Assembly: GCF_000190575.1 (NCBI RefSeq)
Contig: NC_015164.1
Span: 3,087,501-3,151,500 of the forward strand
Reading direction: 5' to 3'
Origin: Phocaeicola salanitronis DSM 18170
GTDB lineage: Bacteria > Bacteroidota > Bacteroidia > Bacteroidales > Bacteroidaceae
Length of the DNA stretch: 64,000 bases
This document shows positions 19,238 through 29,716 of the stretch, piece after piece; positions within the stretch are counted from its first letter, which is position 1, and every line of letters starts with the position of its first letter. A model generated the notes under the pieces. It was not told the origin of the DNA. It saw only the letters and a program-made list of their open reading frames with translations, and did not search any database. The position numbers were made by a program, and so were the translations under genes.

Positions 19238-22200
19238 TTACGGAGTGGCCCGCACCTCGTAGCAGAAGGTTTCGGATGCCGGAACGGACTCCGTGGGGCT
19301 GGGGGTGTAGTAGAATTTCCCTTCGGCGGGCATGCTTTCGGTAAGCGGCACAAGCAGGGGGGATAATTGCGCGCAAAATGCCTGATACGCATGCACGTTC
19401 CTGCGTTCGCCTGCATCGTCGCGGAGGAGCAGGGCGAACCGGTTGAGCGGATAGGCTTGCACCAGCCGGTTGATTTGCCATGCCAGATGGCGGGATTCCG
19501 CCGGCGGGATGCGTCCGGTCAGGTTGGAGACATTGAACACAATCAGTTCGGAAACCGTGGCGTGGGCGTGCCAGAACGAAGCGGGCACGTCTTCCAGCCT
19601 TGCATGGAAAAGGGCTTGTACGGCTTGGTACCCTTCGGCCTGGAACATGCGGCGTGCCGTGTCTTGCATTTCTTCGATGGGGCAAATGCCCAGATAAGCG
19701 ATGCCGGCATGCGGCAAGCGCCGGCAGGCATCGGCAAAGGCAAGTCCCGAAGCGCCTCCTTCGTAGCTTAAATCGCAGAAGACAACGCGTCCCGACACGT
19801 TGCGGACGGCAGGGAAAAGCCAGCTCCCGACGGTTTCATACAGGGCGCGGGCGGCACAATAGCTGCGCCGCATATAATAGTAGGTATAGAGTTGTGTGCG
19901 CCGGACGGTGTCACCGGTCGGGCGGAAATCATAGCGTCCGTAGGCGAGAAGTTCGCGGAGGCGGGCGCTTTCGTCCGGCGTGCCGGAGGCAAACGGTTTT
20001 CCGATGGTTTGCTCGAATGCCCGGATGAATGCCGGAGAGAGCGGATAATGTCCGGAGTGCAAGTCCCAGTCCGGCGCGAAGTCATGCACCTCGAAGTCTC
20101 CTTGGCAAAAGCGTTCCAGCGAGGTCTGGACGTATCCGTTGTGCATGCGGATGTATTCCATCAGCTTGTAGAACGTCAGGTTCGCGCCCAATATTTCCGG
20201 GTTTCCGGTAAGGAACAATTGCTTGCGGGCACGGGTAATGGCTACGTTCAGCTTGCGGTCGATGGTATAGTCTCCTTCGCGGAAGGTATTGGCGGCGAGG
20301 AAGTTCAGCTGGTTGAAGTCGCGCACCGTAAACGAGTAGACAATCACGTCCCGCTGGCTTCCCTGATAGCGTTCCACCGTATCGATGGAAACCGCCTCCA
20401 GCTCCGGTATGCCGAGCCGGGACACTTCCTGGCGTATCATGGCTATCTGGTTCCGGTAGGGCACGATAACCCCCACGGTCTTATGGGCATCGAATTCGGG
20501 CCCTGCGAACCGGTGGATGCGTTCCAGCAATACGGCTACGATGCGGGCTTCGTTCGGGTTGGTCTTGTCCGAACGGGTGGTGTCGTCGGGAGCCTCCGAG
20601 GCGATGAAAACCATACGCCTTTGCAGCATCAGCTTGTCGAGGTTGTCTTTCGGCTCGACGGGGCGGTAAGGAAGCGTTTCTTCCTGGTGCGGAAGGGGCA
20701 CGGGTTCCAGCCGCTCCTGCGCGTAAAAGGCATGGTTGGGGAACTCGGCGATGGCAGGGTGCATGCGCCCTTGCTTGCGGAGCACGCTCCGGAACTCCGG
20801 AGGGCATTGCCGGTACAGGCGTTCGAAAAGCGAGTTGCGGCAATCCGTCAGCCCGATTCCGAGCAGGAGCGGGTCGGTCACCCGGGCTTCTGCCTCGTTT
20901 TGTTGGGCTACGGCGGGCAATTGTTTGTAATCGCCTATCAGTACGAACTTGTCAATCGCGTTTCCCGTTGCGTCTTGTGCCGAGAGGATGCCGATAAGGT
21001 CGGGCTCCAGTATCTGGGAGGCTTCGTCGATAATCGCGGTCTGAAAGTGCTTCATGCCGAACAGGTACAGACGCCCGTTGAGGGCGCTGGTGGTTCCTGT
21101 GAAGATGCGGGTGCGGGCGATGCGGGCACGGATGTCGCTCAGCTTGGGACAATCCGCCAGGCTGTTCTTCATCAGGTAGGGGACGAAACGCTTGTCGCAT
21201 GCCATTTCGTTCCCGATGCGGATAAACGGGTGGCGTTCGGCGATGCCCGACTCTGTCAGCATGTGGCAGATTTCGTCTACCGCACGGTTGGTGTAGGACA
21301 GCAGCAGAAGGGAGGTTTGCGGGTCGGTCAGGGCTTCTTCTACCATGTAGCGCAGGGCGCACGAGGTCTTTCCCGTTCCCGGAGGGCCTACCAGCAGGAA
21401 ATAGTCTTTGCTTTGCTTTTCCTTCAGGATGAGCTCGTCGAACCTTCCGTACTCTCCGTTCAGCTTGCGCGAGGGGTCGCGTTCCGGCATGCGTTGGTTC
21501 AGCAAGAGCTGCTTCCGGTCGTTGCTTGCCGAGAGGAAGGCATACAGCCCCCGCATGGCGTTGGTGGCGGATACGTCCGACGCGTCATGCTCCAGGGCGA
21601 ATGTGTCCGCTTCGGTTCCGATGATGTCCTTGTTCTGTTGTCCGTTGCGCAATTGTACGGTAATCCGGTCGGGGCGTATCTCCGCCAGGCTTCCTTTCAT
21701 CAATATCTCCCGGCGGGCGTCGGGCTGGTCTTGGCAGGGATAAAGGATAACGATGTCTCCGGTGCGGAAATTGGGGAGGAAGTCATCGCCTTGACGGGGG
21801 ATGCGGAGCGTGATGAGGTCGAATCCTTTTCCCGGCGCGCTCTGCCGCTTGCCGGTGATTTTCAGCCCGGACAGGAGGTTTCCCGACTCAATCTTTTCGG
21901 CGGTCGGCGTGTGCCAAAGCCCGGCAAACCCTCTCGACGAATCGTTGTTCCCTCCCGTCTTGCTCAGTATCTGCTCTTTCGACACGAAGGTGAAGAAGCG
22001 CTGGAAATAGGCGCGCTCCAGCGGGGTGCCCCGTTTGAGTGGGGCTATCAGCCTGTCCAGCTCCGGCTTTTGGTACATCGTCCATAGCTTGCCCGATTCG
22101 CCTTTCTGGTTCAGCATGTCCGTATCGATTTCTTCCATCAGCGGGGAGATGCCGCCTTCGCCCAATGCCATTTCCTCGCATACGATGTAGTTGCGCAGGC

Positions 22201-23497
22201 GGATGCATTCGCGGAACAGGGTTTCCGAGAAATGCTCCGGCATCAGCCCGTCATCGTATTTCGAGTAGAGCAGGAGGGTTTGCGTGTCGTCGGCTTTCCG
22301 TCCGAAGTTGTACATCAGGACGCCCTGGTAAAGCATCATCTGCACATAGTGGTCTTCCTTGTGCCGGCGGTTGTACTCGTCCCGCTTGCCGGCCTTCTGC
22401 TCGATAAGGATTTTCAGGTCTTTCTGGAGCATGTCGGCACGTCCCTGCAAGCCGAGCTTTTCGCACACGAACGAGGCCTCGAGCAGGGTGTTCCGCCTGT
22501 CGAAGTCCGCCAGGTTGCGGGGCAGGATGTCGTGGACGAACGAACGGATGTTCAGCATCTGCTTTTGTGCCGAGGCATGGAAATCGGCGGCGAGGTCGCA
22601 GGTGCAGAACTCCAGTGCCGAAGAAGCGAAGAACTTCTTCAGGGTCTGTGCGTACGACACCGGGGCGTCCGCCTCTTCGTTGATGTAATCGTCCAGGAAC
22701 TGGCTGGCGAGGTTTCCCAGCAGGATGGGCGACGTATTGGCGCGCGGCTTGATTTTATTGAGGAAGAAGTTAAGCGGATGATGCCCGTACTCGCGGAAGC
22801 AAGCCGCCAGCGAGCTGATGTCAATCAGGTAATCGGGATGCGCCACGATGAGTTTCGGGACGTATTCATGGTGTTCGTTGATACGGGCGTCCAAGAGGTT
22901 GAGCTGCATGTTTTCCTTGAGCAGTTCGCGGAGGTAGCCCAAGTCGTGGTTGTATCCCCCTTGGAGGTAATCGATGACGATGAACGGGTCCGCTTCGTTG
23001 TCCGATGAGGCGTAGATTTTCGTGTCGGTCCAGCTGGACACCACTACGCGCACGTAGGGCACGTAGGTCTGTCCGCCCTCGTGGTACGGGCGGTTTTCGT
23101 CCGGGATTTCCGCTTGCAGGCCCGGGGGGATGGGCGCATCGTATGCCAAAGATACGAAGCGCGCCAGGGCACGCAAGTCGTACCGGTAGGCCTCCATGTC
23201 GGGCGTGAGCTTCCCGTTTAGGGCTTTCTTGCCGTTCCGGCGCATGGTTTGGATGGCATACCGGTCGGCGGGTGTCATGCGCTTTTCCTTGCATACGAAG
23301 TCCAGCCGCGAGAACAGGTTGGAGAAGGAAAGCGTCATTTCCGAGGTCTGCTCATAACACGCCTGTTCCAGCAATTTATAGAGCCGGATGTACTTGTCCG
23401 TCAGGTTTTCGGGGCTTGCCGCAGGGCGCCGGTGAATCCGTTCGATTTGCCTGTACAGGTCGAACGCTTGCAGTTCGATGCGCTCCGTCATGTTCAA
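19238..23497 (-). CDS. Dna2-like nuclease-helicase fusion with C-terminal methyltransferase-like domain
   Basis: 1419 residues, far longer than a plain SF1 helicase. Residues about 330-400 contain a Cas4/Dna2-type PD-(D/E)XK signature: LGLQGRADMLQKD, then ILIEQKAGK, then YVQMMLYQG. An OB-like stretch (about 580-680, LRIPRQGDDFLPNFRTGDIVIL) precedes an SF1B helicase core: Walker A VGPPGTGKTSCALRY near 703, motif II IIDEASQILEPD near 820, motif III GDYKQLPAV, motif V DTVERYQGSQRDVI and motif VI LNVAITRARKQLFLTGN near 1085. Residues about 1230-1330 read VVFCDLSYEGGASGLAFADAC, then a possible motif II YLGICPIEEM, and SELIVFNVSNL, which looks like a degenerate class I methyltransferase fold. The start overlaps the upstream lipoprotein stop by 4 bp. 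Expected role is processing DNA ends in repair or defence. Confidence 0.85.
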   Translation of the reverse strand: MNMTERIELQAFDLYRQIERIHRRPAASPENLTDKYIRLYKLLEQACYEQTSEMTLSFSNLFSRLDFVCKEKRMTPADRYAIQTMRRNGKKALNGKLTPDMEAYRYDLRALARFVSLAYDAPIPPGLQAEIPDENRPYHEGGQTYVPYVRVVVSSWTDTKIYASSDNEADPFIVIDYLQGGYNHDLGYLRELLKENMQLNLLDARINEHHEYVPKLIVAHPDYLIDISSLAACFREYGHHPLNFFLNKIKPRANTSPILLGNLASQFLDDYINEEADAPVSYAQTLKKFFASSALEFCTCDLAADFHASAQKQMLNIRSFVHDILPRNLADFDRRNTLLEASFVCEKLGLQGRADMLQKDLKILIEQKAGKRDEYNRRHKEDHYVQMMLYQGVLMYNFGRKADDTQTLLLYSKYDDGLMPEHFSETLFRECIRLRNYIVCEEMALGEGGISPLMEEIDTDMLNQKGESGKLWTMYQKPELDRLIAPLKRGTPLERAYFQRFFTFVSKEQILSKTGGNNDSSRGFAGLWHTPTAEKIESGNLLSGLKITGKRQSAPGKGFDLITLRIPRQGDDFLPNFRTGDIVILYPCQDQPDARREILMKGSLAEIRPDRITVQLRNGQQNKDIIGTEADTFALEHDASDVSATNAMRGLYAFLSASNDRKQLLLNQRMPERDPSRKLNGEYGRFDELILKEKQSKDYFLLVGPPGTGKTSCALRYMVEEALTDPQTSLLLLSYTNRAVDEICHMLTESGIAERHPFIRIGNEMACDKRFVPYLMKNSLADCPKLSDIRARIARTRIFTGTTSALNGRLYLFGMKHFQTAIIDEASQILEPDLIGILSAQDATGNAIDKFVLIGDYKQLPAVAQQNEAEARVTDPLLLGIGLTDCRNSLFERLYRQCPPEFRSVLRKQGRMHPAIAEFPNHAFYAQERLEPVPLPHQEETLPYRPVEPKDNLDKLMLQRRMVFIASEAPDDTTRSDKTNPNEARIVAVLLERIHRFAGPEFDAHKTVGVIVPYRNQIAMIRQEVSRLGIPELEAVSIDTVERYQGSQRDVIVYSFTVRDFNQLNFLAANTFREGDYTIDRKLNVAITRARKQLFLTGNPEILGANLTFYKLMEYIRMHNGYVQTSLERFCQGDFEVHDFAPDWDLHSGHYPLSPAFIRAFEQTIGKPFASGTPDESARLRELLAYGRYDFRPTGDTVRRTQLYTYYYMRRSYCAARALYETVGSWLFPAVRNVSGRVVFCDLSYEGGASGLAFADACRRLPHAGIAYLGICPIEEMQDTARRMFQAEGYQAVQALFHARLEDVPASFWHAHATVSELIVFNVSNLTGRIPPAESRHLAWQINRLVQAYPLNRFALLLRDDAGERRNVHAYQAFCAQLSPLLVPLTESMPAEGKFYYTPSPTESVPASETFCYEVRATP

Positions 23498-24291
23498 AGG
23501 GTTTCGCCGGGGATGTATTGCAGGCAGTAGGCTTCCTCCAGTTCCGGATAGCTTGCGCGGTACGTGCCGGTCACGTCTTGCCGCATGAAGCGTCCCGGTG
23601 CCGTCCCGCTTTCCGTGCCGGGGTCGGACGAATCCGAGAGGGTGAGGTCATATTCCGTCCCGCCGGTCAGTTCGATGTGTATCCGGAGGTCTCCGTTGTC
23701 CTGTGCGGTTTGCGTAAAGATGCCGTGCCGTTCGTTGGCGCCTGTCCCGTCCGCATAGAGCGTCACCATGCCTTCCGTATGGCTCTCGTTGGTGTAGGTG
23801 AAGACATATTTCCCTCCTGCCTGCACGAACGCGTTGGCTACGATGGCGTGCTGGATGTCGAGGGTTTCGTCTTGCGTAAGCCCTCCGCCCCGCGCGATGC
23901 CCGAAACTTCGCTTACCTCGTATGTCGTTTCGGGGTAAGACACGTTCACCTGCAAAGTCGTATGGTTGCCCGCCCGGTCAGAGATGGTCAGCGAGGCGGT
24001 TCCCAGTGCTTTCGGGAGGATGGTCAGCTGGTTCCCGTCATACCGGTAGTCTATCTTGTCCGTGTCGGGGGCTTCGATGATGTAGCTTCCGTTCCCGCCT
24101 GTGATGTAGAAGCTGACTCCCTCGCTGAAGAGCGGAATCTCCAGGATATTCTCCTCCAGTGAAGGCGTTTCACTCGATACAGAGGTGAGCGTGATGGGCG
24201 GATAACCGTCGTCTTTGCACGAAGAAAACGGAAGGGAGGCTATCCCTAACGTAAGGCAAAGCAAGCCTTTCAGTATGTTTTTTTTCATCAT
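23494..24291 (-). CDS. Lipoprotein with Ig-like domain, unknown function
   Basis: About 265 residues. The start MMKKNILKGLLCL at 24291 gives a normal signal peptide ending in the lipobox LPFSSC, then KDDGYPPITL. The next region (SSETPSLEENILEIPLFSEGVSFYITGGNGSYIIEAPDTDKI) resembles the Bacteroidales Ig-like/BIG-type repeat that begins with SL.. and contains a GGNG.Y turn. The rest is beta-rich without recognised catalytic residues. It is translationally coupled (ATGA) to the giant nuclease-helicase gene, an odd pairing of an exported lipoprotein with a cytoplasmic DNA enzyme. A -7 box lies 30 bp upstream. Function not recognised. Confidence 0.75.
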   Translation of the reverse strand: MMKKNILKGLLCLTLGIASLPFSSCKDDGYPPITLTSVSSETPSLEENILEIPLFSEGVSFYITGGNGSYIIEAPDTDKIDYRYDGNQLTILPKALGTASLTISDRAGNHTTLQVNVSYPETTYEVSEVSGIARGGGLTQDETLDIQHAIVANAFVQAGGKYVFTYTNESHTEGMVTLYADGTGANERHGIFTQTAQDNGDLRIHIELTGGTEYDLTLSDSSDPGTESGTAPGRFMRQDVTGTYRASYPELEEAYCLQYIPGETL

Positions 24292-24320
24292 GATGGTCAT
24301 TTTAAATGTTATCAATGAGC

Positions 24321-24328
24321 CAAAGGTA
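24321..24328 (-). promoter_or_regulatory. -7 box of the lipoprotein / nuclease-helicase operon
   Basis: Minus-strand TACCTTTG fits TAnnTTTG, about 30 bp upstream of the ATG at 24291. No clear TTTG at the -33 distance. Confidence 0.6.
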
Positions 24329-24440
24329 CGATTTTACTCGGATGCGTGCAATGTTCGAAAGTTTTTTTATACTTTGCGCGGGTTAAAATTGTGCATTTCT
24401 ACATCGCCCGTCCCCGTATTTGCTGACAACTTCGAAAAGA

Positions 24441-25297
24441 TTGAACCTCGCACACCCTGCTCTTTCTTGCCCCGTACATTCTGCAACCTCAAAGAGGTTA
24501 GACCCCGCACATTCGGAAACCTCAAAGAGGTTGGACCTCGTACATTCTGCAACCTCGAAGAGGTTGAACTATGCTTAACCGCTGGTGGCTCCCGAAGGGA
24601 ACACCTGCGGATTATCTCGTCTCCCCCATCTCCCATCGACCTCGAAGGGGTCGAACCTCGCACACCCTGCTCTTTCTTGCCCCGTACATTCTGCAACCTC
24701 AAAGAGGTTAGACCCCGCACATTCGGAAACCTCAAAGAGCTTAGACCTTGCACACTCTGCAACCTCGAAGAGGTTGAACTATGCTTAACCGCTGGTGGCT
24801 CCCGAAGGGAACACCTGCGGATACTCGTCTCCCCCATCTCCCATCGACCTCGAAGAGGTCGAACCACGCACACCCTGCTCTTTCTTGCCTCGTACACTCT
24901 GCAACCTCAAAGAGGTTGAACTATGCTTAACCGCTGGTGGCTCCCGAAGGGAACACCTGCGGATTATCTCGTCTCCCTCTCCTCCATCGACCTCGAAGGG
25001 GTCGAACCTCGCACACCCTGCTCTTTCTTGCCTCGTACACTCTGCAACCTCGGAGAGGTTGAACTATGCTTAACCGCTGGTGGCTCCCGAAGGGAACACC
25101 TGCGGATACTCGTCTCCCCCATCTCCCATCGACCTCGAAGAGGTCGAACCACGCACACCCTGCTCTTTCTTGCCTCGTACACTCTGCAACCTCGGAGAGG
25201 TTGAACTATGCTTAACCGCTGGTGGCTCCCGAAGGGAACACCTGCGGATTATCTCGTCTCCCTCTCCTTCATCGACCTCGAAGGGGTCGAACCACGT
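24441..25297 (+). repeat. Nested stem-loop repeat array (142-bp unit, 34-bp subunits)
   Basis: The block GCTGGTGGCTCCCGAAGGGA recurs at 24581, 24791, 24933, 25076 and 25218, i.e. periods of 210, 142, 143 and 142 bp. The extra 68 bp in the first period is two more copies of a 34-bp subunit containing AACCTC(A/G)AAGAGGTT. Each unit carries several short stem-loops with a GAAG/AAAG or TTCG turn: AACCTCGAAGAGGTT, GACCTCGAAGAGGTC and GGCTCCCGAAGGGAACACC. All frames are open by chance over long stretches, but the translations simply repeat and I do not regard them as genes. Confidence 0.9.
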
Positions 25298-25750
25298 TTA
25301 CTCTGCCAAAAAGAACCGCTCATCCATCTCAATTCCATTCTTACGGACGAGCCTGAGCAACTCTTCACGAAAATCGAACCGCTTATGATGCTCTCTTTGG
25401 TTCATGATGTACTGCGTCACTGCGTCCTTCCCGGACATTGAAACCGTAGCGGCGAAGTATGACTTTCCCCAACCGTCGAATCTCGGAAACTTGTCGGCAT
25501 TCGAGCGCATGAAGGCGCCGGCGGAAAGCTTCAGGTCATGCATGAAAGAAGAAAGGGAAAGCGAAGCAGGCAACTGCACCAACATATGCACGTGGTCTTC
25601 CATGCCACCGATACGGTACAGGACTGCCCCTTTCTCCTTGACGAATCCCCAGATGTAACGGTACAGGCCTTCTGCATGACCCGGGCTGATGACCGGCGCA
25701 CTGCTGCGAGGGCGGAAAACGATGTGGTATATCAGATTGGTATAGCTCAT
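25298..25750 (-). CDS. IS200/IS605-type Y1 transposase (REP-associated, TnpA-like)
   Basis: 150 residues, a full-length HUH Y1 transposase. N-terminus MSYTNLIYHIVFRPR; the HUH motif is in MEDHVHMLVQLP (HVH near residues 52-54); the catalytic tyrosine is in VTQYIMNQREHH near 114; SLSSFMHDLKLSAGAFM separates them. These enzymes cut and rejoin single-stranded DNA at hairpins next to their recognition site. It is embedded between a direct array and an inverted copy of stem-loop repeats, which is the arrangement expected for a RAYT. The stop lies at the edge of the array. All catalytic residues look intact. Confidence 0.92.
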   Translation of the reverse strand: MSYTNLIYHIVFRPRSSAPVISPGHAEGLYRYIWGFVKEKGAVLYRIGGMEDHVHMLVQLPASLSLSSFMHDLKLSAGAFMRSNADKFPRFDGWGKSYFAATVSMSGKDAVTQYIMNQREHHKRFDFREELLRLVRKNGIEMDERFFLAE

Positions 25751-25840
25751 GGGTAATGTGTATAGATAGAACAGAATACAAAGATAGTATAAAATGATGA
25801 ATCGGAGATGAGGTAATCAGAAGAATGTGGCTGGACATGT

Positions 25841-26075
25841 GTGGTTCGACCCCTTCGAGGTCGATGGAAGATGGGGAAGGCGAGATAATCCGCAGGTGTT
25901 CCCTTCGGGAGCCACCAGCGGTTAAGCATAGTTCAACCTCTCCGAGGTTGCAGAGTGTGCAAGGTCTAAGCTCTTTGAGGTTTCCGAATGTGCGGGGTCT
26001 AACCTCTTTGAGGTTGCAGAGTGTGCAAGGCAAGAAAGAACCGGACGTGCGAGGTTCAATCTCTTTTGAGGTTGT
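25841..26075 (-). repeat. Inverted block of the stem-loop repeat
   Basis: The same units as in 24441-25297 appear in reverse orientation: GACCCCTTCGAGGTC at the start, the GGTGTTCCCTTCGGGAGCC unit near 25895, then three AACCTCTTTGAGGTT-type stem-loops. With the direct array it brackets the transposase gene. Confidence 0.9.
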
Positions 26076-26123
26076 CCGTGCAGGCAATGTGGAAATGTAC
26101 AATTCTAACCCGCGCAAAGTTTA

Positions 26124-26326
26124 AGAAGCTGCTTTGAATTTATCGTGCGCTGATTTGGGATGAGTTTTTGTAGAGACGCAAAATCTTGCGTCTCTACTAT
26201 GAGGAAGATAGCGGGCTATCTGACGAAGAACAGGAGCGGAAAGGACCAAAAAATCGCCCAAAGCACACACGAAAACGGATACATCAAGCCAAGAAAAACT
26301 TTTTGGAGAAATTCAAAACAGTTTTT
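26124..26326. mobile_element. 203-bp MITE-like element, copy 1
   Basis: Ends AGAAGCTGCTTTGAATTT and, inverted, AAACTGTTTTGAATTT form terminal inverted repeats. The inside contains the palindrome GTAGAGACGCAAAATCTTGC.... A nearly identical 203-bp copy lies at 63661-63863 in the opposite orientation. No transposase is inside, so it would need one in trans. It abuts the 1.75-kb repeat element and truncates a RhuM gene. Confidence 0.85.
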
Positions 26327-26443
26327 AAACAATTCTGACAATTGTTGTCGGTTTAGCCATACCGTTTCATCGTCCAGCCGTACTTCCAGTTTGATTTCTT
26401 CGTTTGGCTGGTATAAAATGATTTCTCCGTATCCTTCCGTCAT
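26327..26443 (-). pseudogene. RhuM family N-terminal fragment, truncated by the 203-bp element
   Basis: The ATG at 26443 opens a frame that reads MTEGYGEIILYQPNEEIKLE, then VRLDDETVWLNRQQLSELF, the well-conserved start of RhuM/virulence-type proteins, which are usually about 300 residues. After about 39 codons the frame runs into the terminal repeat of the 203-bp element and becomes unrelated sequence until a stop at 26216. The rest of the gene is not present on the far side, where the 1.75-kb element begins. A promoter box (26475-26482) is still intact. RhuM proteins are DNA-binding-like and often associated with mobile DNA; here the gene must be dead. Confidence 0.85.
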
Positions 26444-26474
26444 GTTTCCCTGGTTTTATTAAAGTTTGTAATCC

Positions 26475-26482
26475 CAAAGATA
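26475..26482 (-). promoter_or_regulatory. -7 box of the broken rhuM gene
   Basis: Minus-strand TATCTTTG fits TAnnTTTG, 32 bp upstream of the remnant ATG and 5 bp past the copA stop. It would now transcribe into the 203-bp element. Confidence 0.5.
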
Positions 26483-26486
26483 CAGA

Positions 26487-29021
26487 TTATTCTTCACTTA
26501 TCGTATAATCTCCCGCTTTTTCCGTTATCACCTGCTGGAGGGTTTCTACCGGAAGCGCTTTTCCTTTGGCATAGACAAGCGTTGCCACGGGCGGCTCCAA
26601 GGTCACTTGCGCCTTTACGCCTTCTATCGAGTTCAGCGCTTTTTCCACGTATGTGCGGCAATGGTTGCACATCATGCCTTCTACCCGGTAGGTGCGGCTC
26701 GCGGGGGCGGGTTGAGGCCCGCTGGGGGCAAGAGCCTGAGGGGCATCCGATTCCGGTTCCGTAAGCGGAGCCGGGGCAGGCGCTTCCGGTTTCCCGATGC
26801 GTTTCTTCCGCAGGCGGAGGCTGTTGGTCACGACGCTCACGCTGCTCATCGCCATGGCGGCTCCGGCTATCATGGGGTTGAGCAGGAAGCCGTTTATCGG
26901 GTAAAGGATGCCCGCGGCGACAGGTACGCCTATCAGGTTGTAGATGAACGCCCAGAACAGGTTCTGGCGGATGGTGCGTGTGGTGAATACCGAGAGCCGG
27001 ATGGCATCGGCTATCTTGCTGAGGTCGGAAGAGATTAGCGTCATCTTCGCCACATCCATGGCGAGGTCGCTTCCTTGTCCCATGGCGATGCTCAGGTCGG
27101 CTTGTGCCAGGGCGGAGCTGTCGTTGATGCCGTCGCCTGCCATCGCCACGTGTCGCCCTTCCGCCTGCAATTGCCTGATGGCTTCCGCCTTATGCTGGGG
27201 CAGCATTTCGGCGCGGTATTCTTTGATGCCTGCCTGTGCGGCTATGGCTTTCGCCGTGGCTGCATTGTCTCCGGTCAGCATCAGGACGGTCAGCCCCCGT
27301 TTTTGCAAGGCTTCGATAGCGGGTCTCGAAGTCGGCTTGATGCGGTCGGCAATGGCGAATACGCCCAGGGCGGTTTCGGCGTCGGAAAACCAGATGACGG
27401 TCTTGGCTTCGGAAGCGAATGCCCTGGCTCGGTCTTGCAGCCGGGCAGGAACCGCGATGCGGTTTTCGGTGAGCAGGCGGAGGCTCCCGGCATAGAATGT
27501 CTTGCCGTCAGACTCGCCTTTGATTCCTTGCCCCGTCAGGCTTTCCGCGTTTTCGATAAGGATGTGTGCAGGGATGTCGGGAAGGTCTTCGGCATAGCGC
27601 ACGACCGCGCTTGCCAACGGGTGTTCGGAGCATCTTTCCAAGGCATAGAACACGGCTTGCAGGCGCTTGTCCTCCGTGTCCCATACGGCATCGGTCACCA
27701 CGGGCTTCCCTTCGGTGATGGTGCCGGTCTTGTCCAATACGATGGTGTCTATCTTACGGGCTGTCTCCAGGCTCTCGGCGTCTTTGATGAGGATGCCCTG
27801 CTCGGCTCCCTTGCCGATGCCCACCATGATGGCGGTCGGCGTGGCAAGCCCCAAGGCGCAAGGGCAGGCGATAATCAATACCGTCACGGCGGAGAGCAGC
27901 CCGTGGGTAAATCCGTTTTCGGGGGAAAGGGCCAGCCATAAGACGAAGGTAAGCAAGGCGGTGCCCATGATGGCGGGTACGAAGATGCCCGCAATCTTGT
28001 CCACCAGCTTCTGTACCGGGGCTTTGCTTCCTTGCGCGTCTTGCACCATGCGGATGATGTGTGCCAGCAGGGTGTCGGCCCCCACTTTCTCGGCACGGAA
28101 GCAGAAGCTGCCCTTTTGGTTGATGGTGCCCGCGTAAACCTCGTCGGGGGCTTGTTTCAATACCGGCACCGGCTCGCCGCTCAACATGCTTTCGTCTACG
28201 TACGAATGGCCTTCGCTCACCCGTCCGTCCACCGCGATGCGTTCTCCCGGCTTTACCGCCAGCATATCGCCCGGCACGACCTGCCCGATTTCCGTTTCTT
28301 CCCATTCGCCTTCCGCGTTCAGGCGGGTGACGGTGCGGGGCTGAAGCCCCATCAGCTTCTTGATAGAATCGGAAGTGCGTCCCTTGGCACGTTCTTCCAA
28401 GGTGCGTCCCAACAGGATAAAGGCGATAATGACGCTCGCCGCCTCGAAATAGACATGAGGGGTGACGCCGCGCTCCAGCCAGAATTCAGGGAAAAACAGG
28501 TTGAACAGGCTGAACAGGTAAGCGATGCCGGTGCTGTTTGCCACCAGCGTGTCCATATTGGCGGAGCGGTGCTTCAGCTGCTTCCAGGCGTTGATGTAAA
28601 ACCCTCTCCCCAGCCAGAATACCACGGGAGTGGAGAGAATCCACATCGTCCAGCCGGCGTAGGGCATATCCATAAAGAACATCCCGATGACGGCAACGGG
28701 CAAGGCCAGGGCAATGGCGCAAAGGGTGCGGAAGCGCAAGTCGCGGTAGCGCCGGGTATGGGCGTCTTCGGCGATTTGCGCACTGTCTTTTCCGGTGTCG
28801 GTCACAAGGTCGTATCCCGCATCCTGAACGGCTTTCCGCAAGGCTCCGGGCGAGCATTGCGAAGCGTCGTATTCCACCGTAGCGGTCGCCGCGGCATAAT
28901 TCACGCTTGCCGTGCATACGCCCGGCTGGCGGTTTAAGGTCTTGTCTACCCGTGCGGCACAAGCGGCGCAGCTCATGCCCAATACGGGGAATGTCTGTTT
29001 CTGGATAGCAGATGGGTTCAT
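26487..29021 (-). CDS. copA: Copper-exporting P1B-type ATPase with N- and C-terminal heavy-metal domains
   Basis: 844 residues from the ATG at 29021 (MNPSAIQKQTF); an upstream in-frame extension contains the -7 box and is rejected. An N-terminal HMA domain with MSCAAC (residues 16-21), about eight membrane helices, the CPC ion motif in IIACPCALGLATP near 388, the phosphorylation motif DKTGT near 428, TGDNAATAKAIA and GDGINDSSALAQADL. After a Pro/Ala-rich linker (about 735-770) a second HMA domain with MMCNHC sits at the C-terminus (about 775-844). CPC plus CxxC domains indicate Cu(I) export from the cytoplasm. A C-terminal metal-binding domain is less usual than two in tandem at the N-terminus. 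Confidence 0.93.
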   Translation of the reverse strand: MNPSAIQKQTFPVLGMSCAACAARVDKTLNRQPGVCTASVNYAAATATVEYDASQCSPGALRKAVQDAGYDLVTDTGKDSAQIAEDAHTRRYRDLRFRTLCAIALALPVAVIGMFFMDMPYAGWTMWILSTPVVFWLGRGFYINAWKQLKHRSANMDTLVANSTGIAYLFSLFNLFFPEFWLERGVTPHVYFEAASVIIAFILLGRTLEERAKGRTSDSIKKLMGLQPRTVTRLNAEGEWEETEIGQVVPGDMLAVKPGERIAVDGRVSEGHSYVDESMLSGEPVPVLKQAPDEVYAGTINQKGSFCFRAEKVGADTLLAHIIRMVQDAQGSKAPVQKLVDKIAGIFVPAIMGTALLTFVLWLALSPENGFTHGLLSAVTVLIIACPCALGLATPTAIMVGIGKGAEQGILIKDAESLETARKIDTIVLDKTGTITEGKPVVTDAVWDTEDKRLQAVFYALERCSEHPLASAVVRYAEDLPDIPAHILIENAESLTGQGIKGESDGKTFYAGSLRLLTENRIAVPARLQDRARAFASEAKTVIWFSDAETALGVFAIADRIKPTSRPAIEALQKRGLTVLMLTGDNAATAKAIAAQAGIKEYRAEMLPQHKAEAIRQLQAEGRHVAMAGDGINDSSALAQADLSIAMGQGSDLAMDVAKMTLISSDLSKIADAIRLSVFTTRTIRQNLFWAFIYNLIGVPVAAGILYPINGFLLNPMIAGAAMAMSSVSVVTNSLRLRKKRIGKPEAPAPAPLTEPESDAPQALAPSGPQPAPASRTYRVEGMMCNHCRTYVEKALNSIEGVKAQVTLEPPVATLVYAKGKALPVETLQQVITEKAGDYTISEE

Positions 29022-29048
29022 ATCGGTTCGTGTTTTAGTTTTCGGGTG

Positions 29049-29056
29049 CAAAGTTA
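29049..29056 (-). promoter_or_regulatory. -7 box of copA
   Basis: Minus-strand TAACTTTG fits TAnnTTTG, 28 bp upstream of the ATG at 29021. No copper-responsive operator is recognisable nearby. Confidence 0.55.
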
Positions 29057-29179
29057 GCAACCCTCTGCGATATCCTTTTATATAATTATGGATATAATTT
29101 ATAAATGAAGAACCTTTTTAATGAAGAGCTAAGAATGAAGAATCGCCCGCATGGAAATTCTTCATTCTTCATTCATCAT

Positions 29180-29291: not shown

Positions 29292-29716
29292 GTTTGTGAG
29301 TTTTTTTGAAACGCAGATTTTCGCAGATTAACGCAGATTATTTTACTCTTTTTTTGTCATGCTGAACGAAGTGAAGCATCTCGTAATCATCCACTTGGCG
29401 TATCCGAGATCCTTCACATTCGTTCAGGATGACATGGAAGGTCTGCACGTTTATATTCTAAAAAAATTAATCCGCGAAAATCTGCGTTAATCCGCGTTTC
29501 AACGTTTGTGAGTTTTTTTGAAACGCAGATTTTCGCAGATTAACACAGATTATTTTACTCTTTTTTGTCATGCTGAACGAAGTGAAGCATCTCGTAATCA
29601 TCCACTTGGTGTATCCGAGATCCTTCACATTCGTTCAGGATGACATGGAAGGTCTGCACGTTTATATTCTAAAAAAATTAATCCGCGAAAATCTGCGTTA
29701 ATCCGCGTTTCAAAAA
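29292..29716. repeat. Tandem duplication of a 212-bp nested palindromic repeat
   Basis: Two nearly identical copies (29292-29503 and 29504-29716). Each has outer arms GAAACGCAGATTTTCGCAGA and its inverted form around an inner hairpin GTCATGCTGAACGAAGTGAA...TTCACATTCGTTCAGGATGAC. Only a few bases differ (e.g. AACGCAG/AACACAG). Together with smalltalk they fill 29061-29720. An inverted relative lies at 38205-38406. Confidence 0.9.

Follow-up and report, generated by a model that had tools for sequence, protein, structure and literature searches.

A subclass 1.2 Y1 transposase and its candidate two-hairpin partner, probably carried in a MITE-like element of Phocaeicola salanitronis

The TnpA_Y1 enzymes of subclass 1.2 are presented by Quentin et al. 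(2018; PMC6006769), in the part of that paper concerned with them, as close to IS200 but without the properties of insertion sequences: they are short class 1 proteins (median 148 aa) of low copy number with a C-terminal domain of their own, and neither REPs nor the terminal structures of IS200 are given for them there. For the TnpA_REP enzymes, part of a second paper (PMC8266576) describes cleavage of single-stranded REPs, with a dependence on the GTAG 5' of the hairpin that varies, and also poses the question of a common ancestry of REPtrons and the IS200/IS605 family.

A gene of the subclass 1.2 type lies among hairpin units in a bounded element of 1758 bp in Phocaeicola (Bacteroides) salanitronis, at positions 24367-26124 of the window, by which we mean the whole stretch of 64,000 nucleotides that was analysed. 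Its features are as follows, H1 and H2 being the two hairpins of a unit.

24367..26124, no strand: whole element (matches to other copies end at both edges in loci L062, L064 and L066)
24367..24408, plus strand: left inverted end (end-to-end comparison)
24429..25296, plus strand: direct array downstream of the gene, with five bipartite units, extra small hairpins and 33-nt subunits (repeat comparison)
24551..24610, plus strand: bipartite unit 1, with H1 at 24551-24565, linker at 24566-24574, TTAA at 24575-24578 and H2 at 24579-24610 (sequence, DNA fold)
24761..24820, plus strand: bipartite unit 2 (sequence, palindrome search, DNA fold)
24903..24962, plus strand: bipartite unit 3 (sequence, palindrome search)
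25046..25105, plus strand: bipartite unit 4 (sequence, palindrome search)
25188..25247, plus strand: bipartite unit 5 (sequence, palindrome search, DNA fold)
25298..25750, minus strand: Y1/HUH transposase of 150 aa, with Y114 in the motif YIMNQREHH, the subclass 1.2 signature (ORF, Pfam, alignment)
25838..26065, minus strand: inverted block upstream of the gene (repeat comparison)
25890..25949, minus strand: bipartite unit of the inverted block, with H1 at 25935-25949, TTAA at 25922-25925 and H2 at 25890-25921 (sequence)
26083..26124, minus strand: right inverted end (end-to-end comparison)

The anatomy and boundaries of this element are direct observations. The array (+), the transposase (-) and a block inverted relative to the array follow one another across it, and the whole is enclosed by inverted ends. 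An earlier note on this DNA had put these ends at 38 bp with about 34 identities; 24371-24408 and 26083-26120 are indeed identical, in inverted orientation, at 34 of 38 positions, and the match extends to 39 of 45 nt, the best value from 21 shuffles of the flanks in a coarse search being 22/38. Matches to the window break off at 24366/24367 and at 26124, on both sides for L062, L064 and L066 and at the single retained edge for L065.

The ORF at 25298-25750 is intact and matches Pfam Y1_Tnp (2.2e-22), bearing out the note's complete HUH/Y1 transposase. In an alignment of 62 proteins the HUH histidines, Y114, Q118, H121 and H122 are invariant; Y...Q..HH is shared by the window protein and most of the relatives scanned, including 39 of the 40 proteins of a held-out set described below, and the Y---NP motif of class 2 is absent from the window transposase. 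The protein has the Y1 transposase fold and, among the matches listed, no solved fold was nearer than the IS200-type transposases. The gene is present once in the genome, the copies of the P. salanitronis element at other sites being without it. By its Y---Q--HH motif, short length and low copy number, the enzyme can be assigned to TnpA_Y1 subclass 1.2.

The window units have the layout AACCTCGAAGAGGTT-GAACTATGC-TTAA-CCGC...GCGG. Five direct copies are present, as the note had stated, at spacings of 210, 208, 143 and 142 nt, so that the 142-bp period assigned to them holds for the later ones only; the small subunit, given as 34 bp, measures 33 nt. The later units form a doublet with a period of 285 nt (98% matched), and the near-identical doublets of the array are recent tandem duplications. 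The inverted block of the same units proved to be just that, 24435-24662 and 25838-26065 being 91% complementary over 228 nt. The palindrome AACCTCNNAGAGGTT has 27 matches in the window with at most 2 mismatches, against 0.99 expected. Folded as single-stranded DNA, three units of the array each form two hairpins at -17.7 kcal/mol (z -5.6, -5.1 and -5.4), with bulges in H2; the stretch with 33-nt subunits folds more weakly (z -2.7), and a 22-nt piece holding a third type of hairpin gave no fold as single-stranded DNA (z 0.4). A known RNA family was rejected, as an Rfam search of 23400-27000 with E up to 1 returned no match.

The left neighbour is a 273-aa ORF without a Pfam match (23494-24315), the right neighbour an ORF for a heavy-metal P-type ATPase (26487-29060). 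Also to the left, 19238-23497 holds a 1419-aa ORF with AAA_11/AAA_12 helicase-type domains. Two intergenic direct copies of 211 bp, 98% matched, occupy 29292-29713. At 26121-26329 the right end of the element is adjoined by a short repeat whose own ends are inverted (TTAAGAAGCTGCTTTGAATTTATC / GAGAAATTCAAAACAGTTTTTAAA); its left 26 nt are found also in L063 and L064, with similar stretches in L128 and L136. The hairpin GTAGAGACGCAAAATCTTGCGTCTCTAC at 26170-26197, with the feet GTAG and CTAC, resembles the REPs that the literature calls 'double foot'.

Other copies were observed directly in the genome, of which 4,308,663 bases in 4 contigs were searched; one search gave 12 matches, and further loci hold the array or the ends. 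The 0.78-kb L062 (C1:2066289-2067068) has both ends, an array and an inverted block, and keeps window 25803-25837 from upstream of the gene but lacks the ORF; it is an internal deletion derivative. In L066 (143 bp) and L064 the two arms are joined; L065 keeps one end, and L063 is missing the outermost left bases. The small copy in L064 is interrupted by an IS66-family element (L064 1504-4279; Pfam DDE_Tnp_IS66, 7.8e-86), with GGCGATGT seen by eye on both of its flanks. Flank duplication does not exceed the null in 10 of 11 elements, the remaining one, L066, having a 7-nt match with shifted edges; HUH enzymes are not expected to leave such duplications.

The insert is also observed to be absent from related species. 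Two conserved blocks that lie 2153 bases apart in the window are separated by 62 bases in genome G067, and G023, G032 and G004 have the same region shortened by roughly 2.0 to 2.15 kb, from which it follows that the insert and the neighbouring repeat at 26121-26329 are missing from these four species. In two further genomes, G001 (L175) and G084 (L176), the match to the left flank runs as far as 24369/24370, but their gene order beyond differs, and in L176 the final bases before the left edge differ by eye; both are weak evidence for that edge.

Ends of the window type are not confined to this element. Within the genus, a pattern for the end core was matched in 5 of 61 genomes, with 16 sites in G000, 12 in G067 and one each in G065, G032 and G084, and its reversed control in none. 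In P. salanitronis and in other genomes such ends enclose interiors without the window hairpins: seven two-ended elements with different interiors were found (L067, L112, L113, L116, L118, L124 and L136), most containing CACAGAG-type or GTAGAGACG-type hairpins, and these, like L066 and L064, are short copies that carry the same ends and are non-coding. A search for transposase relatives gave no match in G032, G065, G067 or G084, and of the 60 other genomes searched in the genus only G002 (26%) and G062 (25%) gave matches, both distant. Since such ends surround unrelated interiors, in genomes without the transposase, they do not look like the enzyme's own signature, and a specific tie between the ends and the Y1 gene was rejected. 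Between the same ends, no gene partner other than the Y1 gene was seen by eye in the stretches read. The ends look like part of a wider MITE-like family, and those of about 42 bp are probably served by a different enzyme. A composite repeat of ~250-300 bp, GCGAATCAGGAGTTA...TAACTCCTGATTGGCA, which includes the same type of end (ATACTTCACGCGG), occurs in L125, L127, L130, L131 and L135, and its outer parts also border L062, L064 and L065.

What the window shares with relatives of the transposase is the layout of the unit: a small hairpin H1, a linker of 7-10 nt, a foot [AGT]TA[AG] and a CC...GG hairpin H2. The loci of 75 relatives were scanned first, with L082-L086 and L093-L097 (partial or distant) excluded, and 57 of the 75, having flanks of at least 300 nt on both sides and a protein of at least 135 aa, made up with the window a first set of 58 loci. 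In 40 of these loci inverted repeats between the two flanks rose above the 99th percentile of a control of 464 cross-pairs, and in 27 direct repeats exceeded the control, so that the repeats near these genes are not solely inverted. An initial count of the layout gave 53 matches with a TA centre, spread over 28 of 58 loci; the class ranking second had 27 in 14, partly register shifts. Under the rule H1-linker-N??R-CC, TA had 70 matches in 29 of 58 loci and the other 15 dinucleotides together 14; a stricter version gave 44 in 22 loci against 10. When CC was not required, the 80,137 bases near the genes held 77 NTAR units, compared with 1 in 104,589 bases more than 1.5 kb from the gene in 15 of the same loci and 0 in 99,167 bases from 27 other Phocaeicola loci. 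Other hairpin pairs are also enriched near the genes (22 per 10 kb, against 7.8 far from them and 1.4 at other loci), far less than the NTAR units.

Because the rule had been derived from the first 58 loci, it was rerun on 40 held-out loci, chosen by eye along the order of E-values down to 8.9e-23. Loci already used, genes at contig starts, partial genes, some genes containing stops and four second copies were skipped; the stop-containing L209 and the repeated genomes G295, G244 and G220 were retained. The right flank begins a few codons earlier in this count than in the first set, the rule being otherwise identical. It gave 34 matches in 17 of the 40 loci, and all the other classes gave 6; once L230, whose protein is identical to that of L048 in the first set, is left aside, the figure is 31 in 16 of 39. 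The association of unit and gene across the family is a direct observation, with 104 units at 46 of the 98 loci of the two sets, the other 52 having none by this rule.

The units lie on both sides of the gene at a median distance of 138 nt, with 81 of the 104 directed towards it and 23 away. Their layout is constant and their letters vary, with 49 different H1 5-mers and 34 H2 6-mers; the feet are ATAA (33), GTAA (23), ATAG (16), TTAG (12), GTAG (11) and TTAA (9). Pairing within the units is no evidence here, because the selection demanded it. The last base of the foot, A or G, is uniform within loci, only 1 of 33 multi-unit loci being mixed, and it is clustered on the transposase tree, with 10 changes compared with a shuffled mean of 14.9 (3 of 500 shuffles as low); presence or absence of units is weakly clustered (27 changes against 32.7, 17 of 500 as low). 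The tree is poorly resolved, and on it the clustering of the foot suggests a joint evolution of foot and enzyme. Taken without H1, H2 favours NTAR only mildly (74 against 50 for the class in second place; 35 against 18 in the held-out set), and a MAFFT alignment of 20 units misaligned H1. Genes like those of subclass 1.2, accompanied by bipartite units whose foot is GTAG or ATAG, are also found in L045, L047, L051 and L052, on contigs labelled as MAGs of Planctomycetota type.

Dispersal was measured with an exact pattern of one H2 type in 10 genomes, a measure blind to other types of unit. The pattern matched 5 of the 10, its reversed control none. In G404, 4 of 15 sites are around the gene and 11 on other contigs; of the 4 sites in G327, 1 is elsewhere and 3 are next to the gene, where a single hairpin, matched on each strand, accounts for two; and every site in G326 (3), G246 (2) and G377 (1) is by the gene. 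The unit in P. salanitronis is restricted to a handful of loci, and a highly dispersed unit was rejected for this species given the few loci found in the genome searches. By eye, units of the window type with other hairpin letters occur in L098 (G025:C2), from a Phocaeicola genome without a transposase match.

Several explanations of these arrangements have to be weighed. The earlier note had taken the whole as a single element of an unnamed class, a reading to be given up if the ends did not bound other copies. They do bound copies without the transposase (0.78 kb and about 140 bp), so that this reading passes the note's own test, and the empty sites that it had wished to see compared were found in the four related species. 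In its fuller form the whole TIR-bounded unit would be one autonomous element of a new class, whose Y1 enzyme recognises the ends or the adjacent hairpins, with the small copies as non-autonomous derivatives. The sharp edges on both sides of three copies, the absence of the insert from related species and the lack of flank duplication fit such an element, and the retention of 25803-25837 in L062 suggests that a gene-bearing unit was once there. Against it are the similar ends on other interiors, found in four genomes without a transposase relative, and the loci of relatives, in which hairpin units were seen and no ends like those of the window, by eye in the loci read. Long terminal inverted repeats are also not known as a feature of IS200/IS605. 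We regard the autonomous element as unlikely, though deserving of attention; the note's observation is confirmed and its element reading half right.

It is still less probable that replication slippage and recombination alone spread the hairpin arrays, the transposase gene being a bystander in a hairpin-rich place. The recent tandem duplications in the window array and the milder enrichment of other hairpin pairs near the genes speak for it, but a layout with an NTA[AG] foot and different letters, directed at the gene at nearly half of the loci and hardly present in control DNA, argues against a bystander, as does the clustering of the foot on the enzyme tree. Instead of being substrates of the transposase, the units might be hairpins that regulate its gene, as terminators or as mRNA structures, and their closeness to the gene on both sides and their good folding as DNA would suit this role. 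Such a role is, however, difficult to reconcile with the copies away from the gene in G404, with the gene-less arrays in L062 and L098 and with the absence of an Rfam match, and we consider it very improbable.

The locus is better read as a REPtron-like system of enzyme and hairpin, of a new type, carried here in a MITE-like element, and to this reading we give a probability of about 0.6. A TnpA_Y1 subclass 1.2 enzyme would be paired with its own putative DNA substrate, the unit H1 - linker - [AGT]TA[AG] - H2. From the analogy of IS608 and TnpA_REP we infer that the enzyme binds H2, perhaps with H1, on single-stranded DNA; the tetranucleotide 5' of H2 would, by its position and the same analogy, serve as the guide, with H1 as an addition, and the tyrosine of the enzyme may cleave near it. 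Units copied or moved in trans would give rise to the inverted clusters around the gene and to some dispersed copies; the clustering at the gene is consistent with copying or duplication at short range. In P. salanitronis the pair would ride in a MITE-like element with inverted ends of ~42 bp, present at several sites and with the gene lost in some. We see the TIR-bounded unit as the probable carrier, and that the element could amplify its own hairpins is plausible. A tentative extension, possible rather than likely, is that subclass 1.2 constitutes a third system of single-stranded DNA recombination between IS200 and REPtrons, in which an IS200-type enzyme acts on a double hairpin around an [AGT]TA[AG] guide; it would occur in Bacteroidota and, on the evidence of single MAG loci, in Planctomycetota. 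The array of P. salanitronis would then be self-amplifying, moving between long inverted ends and shedding small derivatives.

The locus is of interest mainly for the REP-like, bipartite unit of subclass 1.2; no report of such a unit was found in the literature searched, supplementary files and most subscription journals being outside that search. The hairpins are a likely DNA partner for a group of transposases reported to have none, and a specific two-hairpin partner makes the activity of subclass 1.2 testable with the published TnpA_REP cleavage assay. A class 1 enzyme accompanied by DNA of REP-like appearance, with GTAG among its feet, bears on the common ancestry of REPtrons and IS200/IS605, and the element itself joins a hairpin array and its putative enzyme between long inverted ends, leaving small derivatives.

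Comparison with known systems supports the earlier judgement that the layout is unlike IS200/IS605. The element differs from IS608 and ISDra2 in having no IS200-type subterminal layout, in its long inverted ends and in its single copy, where several near-identical full copies are a trait of IS200/IS605; a plain IS200/IS605 insertion was rejected, as the ends and arrays do not fit. The BrickBuilt MITE of Porphyromonas gingivalis, also from Bacteroidales, similarly has small inverted ends around a tandem array and several intergenic copies, but it is built of 23-nt units and its abstract mentions no Y1 gene (PMC4596501). The TIRYT/TIRtron elements, in the part of Di Nocera et al. (2013; PMC3733652) that bears on them, likewise place a Y1 gene between long inverted repeats that are found elsewhere in the genome; their enzymes are mostly of class 2 and TIRs replace the REPs, whereas here the hairpin units lie inside the TIRs. 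With TnpA_Y1 subclass 1.2, as far as the same part of PMC6006769 characterises it, the window gene shares Y---Q--HH, DHVH, a length of about 150 aa, single copy and occurrence in Bacteroidetes, but unlike the published members it is flanked by bipartite hairpin units, as are genes at 46 of 98 loci. Like a REPtron (TnpA_REP/RAYT with REPs or BIMEs, as outlined in parts of PMC8266576 and PMC6006769), the locus has one Y1 gene, inverted flanking palindromes and a tetranucleotide 5' of the hairpin. The REPtron foot GTAG (criterion GT[AG]G) is one of the feet of the family, in 11 of 104 units, the window having TTAA instead; a canonical GTAG RAYT was rejected on its Y motif and foot. Where REPtrons have many dispersed copies, P. 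salanitronis has few, and in G404 11 of 15 sites are away from the gene. The system thus departs from the REPtron in its class 1 enzyme (Q..HH, not NP), its [AGT]TA[AG] foot and the extra small hairpin that precedes the foot.
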